In this document: in pieces, positions 25,706 to 29,679 of the stretch
Layout of the letters: the number at the start of each line of letters is the position of its first letter
Position numbering within the stretch: position 1 is the first letter of the stretch
Source: Alphaproteobacteria bacterium
GTDB lineage: Bacteria; Pseudomonadota; Alphaproteobacteria; DSM-16000; Inquilinaceae
Direction of reading: 5' to 3'
Length of the DNA: 64,000 nucleotides
NCBI GenBank assembly: GCA_028284045.1
Contig: JANQSN010000057.1
Span: forward strand, 1-64,000
Translations under genes and position numbers: made by a program
The notes under the pieces: model-generated
The model's database searches: none
Told to the model about the DNA's origin: nothing
Seen by the model: the letters and a program-made list of their open reading frames with translations, nothing else

Positions 25706-26203
25706 ATGCTCAAGAGAGACGACAGACCGACCCCGACCGTCATCGACGACGATGACGCAGGGGCGAGCGCGGACACCAGCCACTATGGCATCGCCCATCT
25801 GCTGCGCGACGCGCAGCGTGCCATGTCGCGGGCGCTGGCGATCCGCATTTCTGCCTACGGTGTATCGATCGGGCAATGGTACTTCCTGCGCGCCCTTTGG
25901 GAGCAGGACGGCCTGACTCAGCGCGAGCTCAGTCATCGAGTCGGCATGATGGAGCCGACCACCGTCACTGCCCTGAACGGCATGGAGAAGAAGGGCCTAG
26001 TCGAGCGCGTACGCAATCCGCGAGACCGGCGGAAGATGAACATCTATCTGACCGCCAAGGGCTTGTCGCTGAAAGACAAGCTCATGCCCTGCGAGGACGA
26101 GGTCAATCGCCTGGCGATCGAGGGGCTGGGCGACGAGCACGCGGAACGCCTGCGCGAAGACCTTCGCCACGTCCTGCAACGCATGGCGGACGCCGGCGAC
26201 TGA
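25706..26203 (+). CDS. MarR-family transcriptional regulator
   Basis: A 165-aa winged-helix regulator. The DNA-binding part is LTQRELSHRVGMMEPTTVTA, followed by the wing LVERVRNPRDRRKMNIYLTAKG. An acidic N-terminal tail (DDDDAGASAD) of about 25 residues precedes the dimerisation helix. It sits directly upstream of, and in the same direction as, the light-harvesting genes, with a 13-bp stem-loop and a separate promoter between them, so it is probably an independent transcript. Whether it controls the antenna genes is unknown. Confidence 0.88.
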   Translation: MLKRDDRPTPTVIDDDDAGASADTSHYGIAHLLRDAQRAMSRALAIRISAYGVSIGQWYFLRALWEQDGLTQRELSHRVGMMEPTTVTALNGMEKKGLVERVRNPRDRRKMNIYLTAKGLSLKDKLMPCEDEVNRLAIEGLGDEHAERLREDLRHVLQRMADAGD

Positions 26204-26255
26204 CGACCGGACGGTCGCCACCGCCTCGCGCGACCGCGGGCCGGCGACGGCATCC

Positions 26256-26297
26256 CTCGCTCAGACAGATGCGATCCGTCGGGTCTGTCTGAGCGAG
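26256..26297 (+). terminator. Perfect 13-bp stem-loop after marR
   Basis: CTCGCTCAGACAG at 26256-26268 and its exact complement at 26285-26297, with a 16-nt loop, 52 bp after the marR stop. There is no T-run directly after the stem, so intrinsic termination is uncertain; a Rho-dependent end, an mRNA-stabilising hairpin, or a DNA-binding site are alternatives. Confidence 0.5.
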
Positions 26298-26412
26298 CGT
26301 TGCGCGGACATTTCCCCCTCTTCCTCGGGTTCGGCGACGTCCGTCGACCAGAACCTCAGGACCGCCGTCGATCGCTGATCGGCGACCGCGGAGGGGTACC
26401 CTTTGCCGCAAC

Positions 26413-26430
26413 TGTCAATTTTACGTGACA
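26413..26430. promoter_or_regulatory. PpsR/CrtJ-type operator, TGT-N12-ACA
   Basis: TGTCAATTTTACGTGACA fits the established PpsR/CrtJ consensus TGT-N12-ACA exactly, with the outer five bases perfectly palindromic (TGTCA/TGACA). It ends 20 bp before the -35 box of the pucB1 promoter. PpsR/CrtJ represses antenna and pigment genes aerobically in purple bacteria, so the likely role is oxygen and light control of this operon. Confidence 0.75.
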
Positions 26431-26450
26431 CTTCCCTGCGTCATGATGTC

Positions 26451-26479
26451 TTGACATTCGGCTTCCTTTCACTAAGAAT
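26451..26479 (+). promoter_or_regulatory. Sigma70-like promoter of pucB1
   Basis: A consensus -35 box TTGACA at 26451-26456, a 17-nt spacer, and a -10 box AAGAAT at 26474-26479, in a locally AT-richer stretch. Predicted start near 26487, giving a leader of about 65-70 nt to the pucB1 GTG. Confidence 0.6.
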
Positions 26480-26553
26480 CCTAAGGTCCCCTGCAGTCCT
26501 CTCCGCGATGGAGCAGGCCGGGCGGCGACCCGGACGCAACTTAGGAGAACTCC

Positions 26554-26718
26554 GTGGCAACAGATCTGGACGATCCGGACCGGGTATGGCCCACCGGACT
26601 GACCATCCGGGAATCGGAAGAGATCCATAAGCACATCATCGACGGTGCGCGGGTTTTCTTCGCGATCGCCCTCTTCGCACATTTTCTGGCATTCGCCTTC
26701 TCACCTTGGGGCGGATAG
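26554..26718 (+). CDS. pucB: LH2-type light-harvesting protein, beta chain (copy 1)
   Basis: A 54-aa single-span bacteriochlorophyll-binding protein of the peripheral antenna. The family pattern is clear: [20 protein letters not shown], then the transmembrane helix with His43 in FAHFLAF, the B850-type bacteriochlorophyll ligand, and a PWGG end. It aligns without gaps to LH2 beta chains over the helix and retains the Arg in GARVF that contacts B800 in known structures. Start is GTG with AGGAGA 5 nt upstream. It differs from copy 2 at only five positions (9, 24, 28, 44, 47). Confidence 0.93.
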
Positions 26719-26728
26719 GAGGTAAGTC

Positions 26729-26875
26729 ATGAATCAAGGCCGTATCTGGTGCGTCGTGAACCCGACGGTGGGTCTTCCGCTGTTCCTGGGTGGCGTCGCG
26801 CTGATCTCGCTGATCGTGCATTTCTCGGTTCTGGGCAACACGGAGTGGATGGCGGCCTTCTTCCAAGGCGGCTGA
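26729..26875 (+). CDS. pucA: LH2-type light-harvesting protein, alpha chain (copy 1)
   Basis: A 48-aa antenna alpha chain, 10 bp after pucB1 with a perfect AGGAGG site. The start [12 protein letters not shown] is the LH2 alpha signature; Met1 is the B800 ligand in known LH2. His31 (LIVHF) is the B850-type ligand. An ungapped alignment to the Rhodoblastus (Rps.) acidophilus alpha chain puts Phe44-Phe45 at the positions of Tyr44 and Trp45, whose hydrogen bonds tune absorption to 850 nm. The protein ends at Gly48, without the usual C-terminal extension. Confidence 0.93.
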
Positions 26876-26882
26876 TTCCCAA

Positions 26883-26941
26883 CCGATCGTCCCGGAGACG
26901 ACTGCCGATCGGGGGGGGCGGGACCCTAGCCATGCTCCCCC
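26883..26941 (+). promoter_or_regulatory. Hairpins following pucA1 (mRNA processing or stability element)
   Basis: CCGATCG (26883-26889) pairs with CGATCGG (26906-26912). An overlapping G8 run (26911-26918) can pair with CCCCC at 26937-26941. The same two-part arrangement follows pucA2. In purple bacteria a hairpin after the antenna genes stabilises the short pucBA/pufBA mRNA and reduces read-through, which is the likely role here. Confidence 0.6.
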
Positions 26942-27007
26942 ACTACCTCTGTGGCCGGACGACAGCCACGGACCAACGCCGGAGCGCTGGAACGCGGGAG
27001 CGCTAGC

Positions 27008-27733
27008 ATGACACTGATCGTTCGGGTGTACGCGGCCGAGAAGAAGGCCCGCGACGCCGCGGCGAAGCTGAAAGCCGAGGGCTACAGCGAGGACAAGATC
27101 CTCCTGATGGCACCGAAGGCCGACGCGGACCCTGGCGAAGCGGTTGCCGCTGCGGTCGCGAGCGGACATCTGCCGAGCAACTACGCCATCATGGCGACCG
27201 ACAACCTGAAGGAAGGCCGATCCGTCGTCGCGATCGACCCGCCCTTCGGCGCCGGTCTTGGCGCGACCGAGGTTCTGGACAGCTTCGGCCCCGTCAAGGA
27301 GGACAAGGCGCCGGACACGACCTACCAGTCGACCTACACCACCGAAGGCATCGGCCTTCCGCTGCTGTGGAATGGCAAGAGTTGGTTCGCCGGCCTGTTC
27401 GGCGGCGAGCTGAGCAACTCTGCGCCGCGCGCCAAGCTGTCGGACGATCCGACGCCGCTGTCCTCCCGTTTGGGCATGACGGTGCTGAAGGAAGACAAGA
27501 AGGATCGGACGCACAGCTACGGCCAGCCGCTGCTGACGTCGAAGCAGTACATCCTGGGCGAGCCGAAACTGACGTCCGAGGCGGCGCCGTTCTCGGCCCG
27601 CATCGGGATGAAGCTTCTCACCGAGAAGAAGGAAGGTGAATGGACGACCGACAGCTTCGGCAACAAGCTGCTGTCGTCGGACCCGGCGCCGCTGTCCAGC
27701 GCGATGGGAATGACCGTCCTGACCAAGGAGTGA
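27008..27733 (+). CDS. Unknown protein encoded between two pucBA pairs; three C-terminal repeats
   Basis: A 241-aa soluble protein with no signal peptide or membrane segment. Residues 1-96 look like one alpha/beta domain: a strand TLIVRVYA, a helix with AAAKLKAEGYSEDKI, a second strand, then GRSVVAIDPPFGAG followed by EVLDSFGP. This weakly resembles the general-stress YflT/GS17M fold (my inference, not a firm match). The second half has three copies of a motif KL-x(3-4)-(D/A)PxSSxxGMxxL at about 143-161, 187-205 and 220-239. Those copies are separated by charged linkers. Codon use matches its neighbours. It begins 132 bp after pucA1 and ends 69 bp before pucB2, so it is cotranscribed with the antenna genes. 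A role in LH2 assembly, spectral form or antenna regulation is plausible but unproven. Confidence 0.85.
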   Translation: MTLIVRVYAAEKKARDAAAKLKAEGYSEDKILLMAPKADADPGEAVAAAVASGHLPSNYAIMATDNLKEGRSVVAIDPPFGAGLGATEVLDSFGPVKEDKAPDTTYQSTYTTEGIGLPLLWNGKSWFAGLFGGELSNSAPRAKLSDDPTPLSSRLGMTVLKEDKKDRTHSYGQPLLTSKQYILGEPKLTSEAAPFSARIGMKLLTEKKEGEWTTDSFGNKLLSSDPAPLSSAMGMTVLTKE

Positions 27734-27802
27734 GCTCAGGATCCCGAGTAACGGTTTAGGGATCCCGGCATCACGCGTACGGGTACAACTGGAGAGAAAG
27801 CC

Positions 27803-27967
27803 ATGGCAACTGACTTGGACGACCCCAACCGGGTGTGGCCCACCGGCCTGACCATTCGGGAGTCGGAAGAACTGCACAAGCACGTCATCGACGGTGCGCG
27901 TGTCTTCTTCGCGATCGCCCTGTTCGCCCATCTGCTGGCGCTTGCCTTCTCGCCCTGGGGCGGATGA
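27803..27967 (+). CDS. pucB: LH2-type light-harvesting protein, beta chain (copy 2)
   Basis: A 54-aa LH2 beta chain nearly identical to copy 1: five substitutions (D9N, I24L, I28V, F44L, F47L), the last two flanking the bacteriochlorophyll ligand His43. ATG start with GGAGAG upstream. The gap between the unknown gene and this start (69 bp) contains GGATCCCG twice, 16 bp apart, but no clear promoter, so it is probably read from the pucB1 promoter or by partial read-through. Confidence 0.93.
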
Positions 27968-28000
27968 GCAAGGGTTAGGCAGAGATCAAGGAGATAGGTC

Positions 28001-28147
28001 ATGAATCAAGGCCGAATCTGGTGTGTCGTGAACCCGACCGTCGGGCTTCCGCTGTTCCTGGGCGGCGTGGCGGCGATCTCGCTGATCGTCCACTTCGCCG
28101 TCATGGGCAACACGGACTGGGTGGCGCGCTTCTTCCAAGGCGGCTGA
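28001..28147 (+). CDS. pucA: LH2-type light-harvesting protein, alpha chain (copy 2)
   Basis: A 48-aa alpha chain differing from copy 1 at six positions (25, 33, 35, 39, 41, 43). His31 and the Met1 start motif MNQGRIW are kept, and Phe44-Phe45 are again found in place of Tyr-Trp. Ala43 of copy 1 is Arg43 here, right beside the tuning residues. ATG preceded by AAGGAGA. Both copies therefore predict the same kind of blue-shifted pigment ring. Confidence 0.93.
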
Positions 28148-28158
28148 TACCCAGGCAG

Positions 28159-28212
28159 CCTGATCTTAGGTAACTGCTGATCAGGGGGGGCGGGCTGACC
28201 ACGCCCTCCCCC
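28159..28212 (+). promoter_or_regulatory. Hairpins following pucA2 (same design as after pucA1)
   Basis: CCTGATC (28159-28165) pairs with GATCAGG (28179-28185). An overlapping G7 run plus CGGG (28184-28194) can pair with CGCCCTCCCCC ending at 28212. The stem sequences differ from those after pucA1 while the architecture is kept, which argues for selection on RNA structure. Confidence 0.6.
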
Positions 28213-28248
28213 TTCATCCCTCCGACGATTTGCAGGTTCGATCGACAC

Positions 28249-29679
28249 GTGGTCCGGGTAGCGAAGCGACTGACCAAGGCGTGGGTCTCATTGGGTCCGC
28301 GCTATTTGCCGTTCGCCGACGTCGCTACGGCGGACCTGCCTTTGAGCCGCTTGCTGCGGCTTTCGCTGTTTCAGGTCTCCGTCGGCATGGCGCTGGTGCT
28401 GCTGGTCGGCACGCTGAACCGCGTCATGATCGTCGAGCTGGACGTGCCGGCCTCGATCGTCGGCGTGATGATCGCCCTGCCGCTGGTCTTCGCGCCGTTC
28501 CGGGCGCTGATCGGCTTCCGCTCCGACACCCATCGCTGCGAGCTGGGCTGGCGGCGCGTGCCTTTCATCTGGAAGGGCACGCTGATGCAGTTCGGCGGCT
28601 TCGCCTTCATGCCGTTCGCGATCCTCGTGCTGGCGGGTCAAGGCCATGCGGCGACCCTGCCGGTGTGGATCGGCCAGCTCAGCGCGGCGGCGGCCTTCCT
28701 TTTGGTCGGTGCGGGCGTGCACACCGTCCAGACCGTCGGGCTGGCGCTGGCCACCGACCTGACGCCGCCGGAGTCCCACCCGAAGGTGGTGGGCCTGATG
28801 TATGTCATGCTGCTGGTCGGCATGATCGCCAGCGCGCTGATCTTCGGCTGGGCGCTGACCGACTTCTCGCCGGGCCGGCTGATCCAGGTGATCCAGGGCG
28901 CCGCCGTCGCCACCGTCGCCTTGAACGTGGTGGCGCTGTGGAAGCAGGAAACGCGCCGCCCGCCGCGCGGCGCCGCCCCCGCCGCCGCCCCAGATCCGAC
29001 CTTCCGGGAAAGCTGGGCCACTTTCTGCGCCGGCTCCTCGGCCATCCGCCGGCTGGTGATCGTCGGCCTCGGCACCATGGCCTTCGGCATGGCCGACATC
29101 CTGCTGGAGCCCTATGGCGGCCAGGTGCTTAGTCTTGGCGTCTCATCGACGACCAAGTTGACGGCGCTGTTCGCCTTCGGCGGCCTGATCGGGTTCGCCT
29201 ACGCCTCCTTCGCGCTCGGCCGCGGTGGCGATGCCTACCGCATGGCGCAGACCGGCGCCGTGCTTGGCCTGCCCGCCTTCGCGCTGGTCATCCTGGCGGC
29301 CCCGCTCGACCAGGTCGGGCTGTTCCTGGCCGGCAACGTCCTGATCGGCTTCAGCGCCGCGCTGTTCAGCCATGGCACGCTGACCGCGACCATGAACCGG
29401 GCGCCGAAGTCCCAGGCCGGCCTGGCGCTCGGCGCCTGGGGCGCGGTGCAGGCCACCGCGGCCGGCGTCGGCATGGCGTTGAGCGGGGTCATTCGCGACC
29501 TGGTGAACGCGGCGCTGGGCGCCGTGGAGCAGGTCTGGGGCGTGGCGGCCAGCGCTGCCGGCTACATCACGGTCTACTCGCTGGAAATCGTGTTGCTGGT
29601 GGTGACCATCGCCGCCACCCTGCCGCTGATCCGGCGCCGACCGGCGACCTCGCCGCGCGCCGTCGACGAAACCGGCTGA
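28249..29679 (+). CDS. pucC: PucC/LhaA-family light-harvesting complex assembly protein
   Basis: A 476-aa MFS-like (BCH family) membrane protein with about 12 hydrophobic segments, required for LH2 assembly and thought to deliver bacteriochlorophyll to antenna subunits. Segments typical of PucC/LhaA are LLRLSLFQVSVGMALVLLVG, LNRVMIVELDVPASIVG, FIWKGTLMQFGGFAFMPFA and ADILLEPYGGQVL. The GTG at 28249 is the first start; internal starts are possible. It lies 101 bp after pucA2, behind the hairpins, so its expression is probably lower than that of the structural genes. Confidence 0.93.
   Translation: MVRVAKRLTKAWVSLGPRYLPFADVATADLPLSRLLRLSLFQVSVGMALVLLVGTLNRVMIVELDVPASIVGVMIALPLVFAPFRALIGFRSDTHRCELGWRRVPFIWKGTLMQFGGFAFMPFAILVLAGQGHAATLPVWIGQLSAAAAFLLVGAGVHTVQTVGLALATDLTPPESHPKVVGLMYVMLLVGMIASALIFGWALTDFSPGRLIQVIQGAAVATVALNVVALWKQETRRPPRGAAPAAAPDPTFRESWATFCAGSSAIRRLVIVGLGTMAFGMADILLEPYGGQVLSLGVSSTTKLTALFAFGGLIGFAYASFALGRGGDAYRMAQTGAVLGLPAFALVILAAPLDQVGLFLAGNVLIGFSAALFSHGTLTATMNRAPKSQAGLALGAWGAVQATAAGVGMALSGVIRDLVNAALGAVEQVWGVAASAAGYITVYSLEIVLLVVTIAATLPLIRRRPATSPRAVDETG

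Follow-up and report, generated by a model that had tools for sequence, protein, structure and literature searches.

The LH2 complex is the textbook two-subunit antenna. In the window analyzed here, the whole 64,000-nucleotide stretch at positions 1 to 64,000 of contig JANQSN010000057.1 from an alphaproteobacterium of the Inquilinaceae, a gene for a 241-amino acid protein is embedded among the LH2 genes, which raises the question of whether this antenna includes a third component and, if so, of what kind.

The puc operon and its additional gene

All genes of the operon are on the + strand, in the order pucB1-pucA1-[241-aa ORF]-pucB2-pucA2-pucC, as determined by ORF and protein family search of the window, and the ORF is separated from the antenna genes by gaps of 132 nt on the 5' side and 69 nt on the 3' side. 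The sequence-only reading of this DNA had placed the ORF between two complete pucBA pairs, in the same direction and with short gaps, and both the coordinates and the PF00556 matches agree with this description.

26413-26430, + strand: TGT-N12-ACA palindrome, PpsR/CrtJ type, 20 nt upstream of the promoter, before the first pucB
26451-26479, + strand: sigma-70-like promoter TTGACA-17-AAGAAT, before the first pucB (pattern scan)
26554-26718, + strand: pucB1, LH2 beta subunit (PF00556, E 1.7e-7)
26729-26875, + strand: pucA1, LH2 alpha subunit (PF00556, E 3.4e-12)
27008-27733, + strand: repeat protein, proposed gamma-like LH2 belt subunit, 241 aa, ATG start
27803-27967, + strand: pucB2, LH2 beta subunit (PF00556, E 1.5e-7, genome scan)
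28001-28147, + strand: pucA2, LH2 alpha subunit (PF00556, E 2.9e-11, genome scan)
28249-29679, + strand: pucC, LH2 assembly protein, major facilitator type (PF03209, E 1.4e-148)

The sigma-70-like promoter is the only one in the region 26200-28400, compared with 0.3 expected; with five TGT-N12-ACA sites across the window against 3.4 expected, the palindrome at 26413-26430 is notable by its position only. Given the single promoter-like site and the lack of terminator-like sites on the + strand between the genes of the operon, the whole operon, the repeat protein gene included, is likely to be expressed as one transcript. An mRNA-stabilizing hairpin after pucA1 is not claimed, the predicted folding of this gap being no better than that of shuffled sequences (z 0.45). 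An in-frame GTG at 26951 would lengthen the repeat protein by 19 amino acids, but the alignment of homologues favors the ATG at 27008. Duplication debris between two pucBA pairs was considered as well and rejected: the frame is open and the N-terminal domain of the protein is conserved across phyla.

Several other features of the locus and the genome can be pointed out. Both PucA proteins (26729-26875 and 28001-28147) contain Phe-Phe at positions 44/45, the pattern tied to 800-820 nm (LH3-type) absorption (PMC5374385), and the antenna of the window may be B800-820 instead of B800-850. A gene for an HpaR-like regulator of the MarR family (25706-26203) directly precedes the puc operon and shares its strand. 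A single LHC-type antenna match is located outside the puf and puc operons of this genome, at G000:C24:155993-156097.

Domain architecture of the repeat protein

The protein combines a predicted compact N-terminal domain with a C-terminal half that consists largely of short repeats.

27008-27310, + strand: soluble alpha/beta N-terminal domain, residues 1-101 (AlphaFold2 mean pLDDT 91)
27326-27373, + strand: repeat unit 1, Gly116, TTEGIGLPLL (motif scan 9.6 bits)
27446-27493, + strand: repeat unit 2, Gly156, DPTPLSSRLGMTVL (motif scan 22.5 bits)
27494-27541, + strand: repeat unit 3, Gly172, THSYGQPLLTS (motif scan 10.7 bits)
27530-27577, + strand: weak extra unit, Gly184, YILGEPKLTS, 12 residues past unit 3 (simple pattern; under the motif-scan threshold)
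27578-27625, + strand: repeat unit 4, Gly200, EAAPFSARIGMKLL (motif scan 24.4 bits)
27632-27679, + strand: repeat unit 5, Gly218, TDSFGNKLLSS (motif scan 15.9 bits)
27680-27727, + strand: repeat unit 6, Gly234, DPAPLSSAMGMTVL (motif scan 24.0 bits)

An alpha/beta N-terminal domain had been proposed at residues 1-96, and the AlphaFold2 model of residues 1-101 alone bears this out, with the order beta-alpha-beta-alpha-alpha-beta-alpha; in the full-chain model, the pLDDT is 93-98 in most blocks of this domain. Foldseek comparison of the domain with PDB yields no match with an E-value below 0.001, the best names being NDPK/PII-like, and these non-significant resemblances were left unused for function. 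In Pfam, YflT (PF11181) alone is matched by the protein from the window (E 0.27; 12.2 bits compared with the gathering cut-off of 26.2), and the matches among other family members are weak too (best E 0.0074-0.0088). The domain is similar to YflT, also known as general stress protein 17M, in size and start (IVRVYxxEKKARDAAxxLKAEG) but falls under the Pfam cut-off, and we know of no antenna link or C-terminal repeats in YflT. There is no match to the LHC antenna model PF00556, and a transmembrane subunit was rejected because a long hydrophobic stretch is absent, as judged by eye.

Three C-terminal copies of a repeat motif had been discerned originally; the motif scan raises this number to six clear units and one weak unit, mostly 16 residues apart in the family, compared with 0.11 units in each shuffled protein. 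The spacings in the protein from the window are 40, 16, 28, 18 and 16 residues, the weak unit being left aside. The consensus across 41 relatives is NPAPLSSxFG[LM]PLLSK, with 113 cases of a spacing of exactly 16 residues and 14 of the next commonest one, 25; the relatives usually contain seven units in a 25-16-16-16-16-16 layout. Within the units, the Gly is conserved in 87%, the Pro at +2 in 52% and the Leu at +4 in 89%, and Ser or Thr occurs at positions -4 to -1 relative to the Gly in 220 of the 229 units. Two groups depart from this layout: the members from Rhodobacterales have units of 25-26 residues, and some of those from Gammaproteobacteria are long, their ten or eleven units being split between two sets. 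Four of the Rhodobacterales proteins (L144, L145, L146 and L149) are ∼340-350 amino acids long and consist of ∼7-9 near-identical units of ∼25 residues (HARMANWPIPLLSRRKPWDRFAFPR). The AlphaFold2 pLDDT of the C-terminal half is mostly below 50, that is, this part of the protein is predicted to be disordered, as expected for a chain that takes up its fold only when bound to a partner.

An unnamed protein family linked to LH2 genes

Single-sequence searches of Pfam, NCBIfam and PDB with the protein from the window gave nothing significant, profiles A5 and A6 produced only chance matches in PDB, and a plasmid collection contained no family match. The repeat protein nevertheless belongs to a large family that is unnamed in these three databases. 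Relatives, collected by protein profile alone and regardless of the neighbor genes, were found in four genomes of the order-level set (including that of the window, where the gene is present in a single copy), in more genomes of the class and in many Rhodobacterales. By record title, the hosts are Alpha- and Gammaproteobacteria, Gemmatimonadales, Longimicrobiales and two ‘Myxococcota' metagenome-assembled genomes (MAGs). The latter (L034, JANQFK010000077.1, and L039, JANQRO010000018.1) carry a complete pucBA-gene-pucC operon, which reflects either gene transfer or wrong binning.

A majority of homologues in non-phototrophs or at a distance from antenna genes would have spoken against a tie to the antenna; this was tested for and did not occur. 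Among the 34 relatives in GTDB genome contigs, 31 are on the same strand as, and within 1.3 kb of, pucBA or pucC. As for the other three, L041 and L042 reach the ends of their contigs; L057, at or near a contig end, is the second copy in a genome where the other copy (L048) sits in a puc operon. The gene order is pucBA-gene-pucC in the relatives of the window, gene-pucBA-pucC in most Gammaproteobacteria, and pucBAC-gene in Rhodobacterales, Hyphomicrobium and Neomegalonema; in L015 and L016, the family gene is divergent to pucBA. One gammaproteobacterial MAG has a tandem pair of family genes upstream of pucBA (L046, 5373-7035). Repeat-only relatives that lack the N-terminal domain (L115-L120) are present in three genomes, G720, G762 and G688, several per genome; one in each (L116, L118 and L120) adjoins pucBA in the opposite direction, and L115, L117 and L119 have no puc genes nearby.

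In Rhodobacter capsulatus, the puc operon (pucBACDE) encodes two non-pigment proteins, PucD and PucE, downstream of pucC. The family members from Rhodobacterales, Hyphomicrobium and Neomegalonema occupy a similar position, unlike the gene in the window, which precedes pucC and lies between two pucBA pairs. PucD and PucE may be members of this family. The best match of Rba. capsulatus PucA in the sampled genomes shows 63% identity.

The link to LH2 extends to the presence of the gene across genomes, sampled as an even draw and not as all species. In the order to which the window belongs, PF00556 antenna genes are found in 4 of 17 genomes, and the repeat gene in the same four. LH2-type PucA is encoded in 44 of the 332 Rhodobacterales genomes, and 39 of these 44 have the family gene (36 by profile and three, G428, G451 and G600, by operon reading). 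The Fisher test on the 36 profile-detected genomes gives p ∼1e-26, to be read alongside up to 19 Rhodobacterales with a family match but no LH2-type PucA match. The five genomes with LH2-type PucA and no family gene are G501, G671, G698, G709 and G736, and in all of these except G698, PucA has a long Ala/Pro/Glu-rich extension. An LH2 with such an extended PucA that needs no gamma-like chain would agree with the LH2 of Rba. sphaeroides, which has no gamma (PMC9618040).

Comparison with the LH2 gamma subunit

The sequence-only reading knew of no described puc operon with such a member. The arrangement recurs in Alphaproteobacteria, Gammaproteobacteria and Gemmatimonadota MAGs, and a repeat-built LH2 subunit has been described, namely gamma of Rhodopseudomonas palustris (RPA1495; PDB 7zcu, 7zdi, 7ze3 and 7ze8), found by BLASTp in Rhodopseudomonas only (PMC9618040). 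No curated family covers the repeat protein, and the gamma paper of 2022 has no relatives beyond this one genus (PMC9618040). Gamma comprises six repeats of ‘EYKGHSGHPLIKQEG', with one Ser in each ligating the Mg of a bacteriochlorophyll, and runs in the experimental structure as an extended ribbon round six of the nine alpha/beta pairs (PMC9618040). In the same organism, the hypothetical gene RPA3011, which adjoins pucBAd, is co-induced in low light (PMC6879726).

In PDB, the gamma sequence repeats every 16 residues exactly, with six units of SGxPLIL, and the protein from the window shares with it the tandem 16-residue units, the G-x-P-L-[LI] core, a serine close by, a similar unit number (six in gamma, six or seven here) and repeats without expected secondary structure. 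There are differences too. Gamma, with 97 residues, is repeat-only, as are the relatives from G720, G762 and G688, whereas the protein from the window and most relatives add a domain of ∼100 residues. When the units are aligned on GxPL, the ligand Ser of gamma at -1 corresponds to Phe/Leu in the family, where Ser is at -4/-3, and the sequence outside the core differs (EYKGYSGEPLILKQEG in gamma compared with NPAPLSSxFGLPLLSK). LH2 is the partner of gamma by structure and, by gene position, the probable partner of the protein from the window.

Among 177,635 PDB sequences, LH2 gamma is the sole match of the family repeat consensus (E 4e-6), but a profile of the natural C-terminal repeats does not match gamma even at E 10. 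Permuted-column gammas do no worse than the real one in 52 of 3000 cases with the pure consensus, 156 of 3000 with the profile and 5% with the position matrix, compared with 2 of 3000 when two natural members, L027 and L035, are the queries. The reverse search with gamma in 682 genomes gave four weak matches, one of which (genome G003, E 0.0065) falls in the repeats of a family member; this match is supporting only because the other three, with similar E-values, are unrelated repetitive ORFs. Given that the natural sequences miss gamma and the permutation p is ∼0.02-0.05, homology is unproven and common descent is not established; the family and gamma share their period, their G-x-P-L core and their antenna context.

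A probable gamma-like belt subunit and the competing explanations

Among the three roles offered by the sequence-only reading, the best fit is a linker whose repeats bind LH2, whereas nothing beyond a generic alpha/beta fold speaks for the sensor. The repeat protein is probably an accessory LH2 subunit, a gamma-like belt to which a soluble N-terminal domain has been added. This reading draws on the observed operon position, on the period and number of the units, on the co-occurrence with LH2 and on the predicted order of the N-terminal and disorder of the C-terminal half, whereas LH2 binding, the path of the ribbon, pigment binding and the membrane side are inferred. It would be produced together with alpha and beta from the common operon, and its C-terminal half, without a fold of its own, would become an extended ribbon along the LH2 ring. 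With one 16-residue unit per alpha/beta pair, a single chain would span ∼6-7 pairs, each unit being held in place by the hydrophobic P-L-x-x-x-[FL]-G-[LM]-P-L-L stretch, and the Ser/Thr just ahead of the Gly would contact either alpha/beta or a bound pigment through hydrogen bonds or Mg ligation. These residues may ligate extra bacteriochlorophyll, as in gamma; of all steps, we are least sure of this pigment binding and put it forward tentatively. The N-terminal domain would remain at the cytoplasmic face and serve there as an anchor or an oligomerizing module. The units of 25-26 residues in Rhodobacterales and the gammaproteobacterial members with ten or eleven units count against the belt, so that one unit per alpha/beta pair is not simply true. 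The gamma subunit of LH1 (Blastochloris viridis type) is likewise an extra subunit packing on a light-harvesting ring but consists of many copies of a separate polypeptide (PMC10214105), in contrast to the single long repeat chain encoded here among LH2 genes.

The main competitor is an assembly factor that acts alongside PucC. Its repeats would keep several alpha/beta pairs aligned, or hand over bacteriochlorophyll, during the insertion of these pairs by PucC; the protein would then leave the finished ring, and the number of repeats would serve as a ruler of ring size. The gene adjoins pucC in nearly every genome, either between pucBA and pucC or directly after pucC, the protein is apparently soluble, and the repeats appear fit for binding several identical partners. 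However, gamma, the nearest repeat protein with a solved structure, remains in the mature complex (PMC9618040), and the family gene is absent from Cereibacter-type genomes, in which LH2 and pucC genes are present. We consider this role unlikely.

More improbable still is an organizer of the membrane, with the repeats connecting LH2 rings to each other or to RC-LH1 and the N-terminal domain oligomerizing to cross-link them: the predicted compact alpha/beta domain has a weak likeness to oligomeric PII/ACT/NDPK-type folds, and the long gammaproteobacterial versions carry their units in two sets, but these fold matches are not significant and there is no sign of partners other than LH2. The most doubtful reading of all is a regulator or stress protein, in which a YflT/PII-like domain would sense stress or a small molecule and adjust the antenna, its output being delivered by the repeats. 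The weak YflT matches among members and a PII-like fold match with a probability of 0.9 (TM-score of 0.53-0.56 of target only) are set against a score under the YflT cut-off in the protein from the window, no conserved ligand-binding signature found and members that consist of repeats alone.

Implications for LH2

If the repeat protein is indeed a gamma-like belt subunit, a regular component of LH2 would have been overlooked, its gene being a third one beside pucBA/pucC in 39 of the 44 sampled Rhodobacterales with LH2 as well as in Gammaproteobacteria and Gemmatimonadota MAGs, probably because the most-studied LH2 models (Rba. sphaeroides) lack the family gene. If PucD and PucE are members, part of the family has already been seen under those names. 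It is conceivable, though we hold it with considerable reservation, that most LH2 outside the Rba. sphaeroides group consists of alpha, beta and a ring-wrapping repeat chain with extra bacteriochlorophylls, in which case gamma would be one end of a family that spans at least two phyla, with a soluble cytoplasmic domain fused on in most members. The family gene also makes ring size, the number of B800 pigments and the assembly of LH2 testable through the removal of a single gene.
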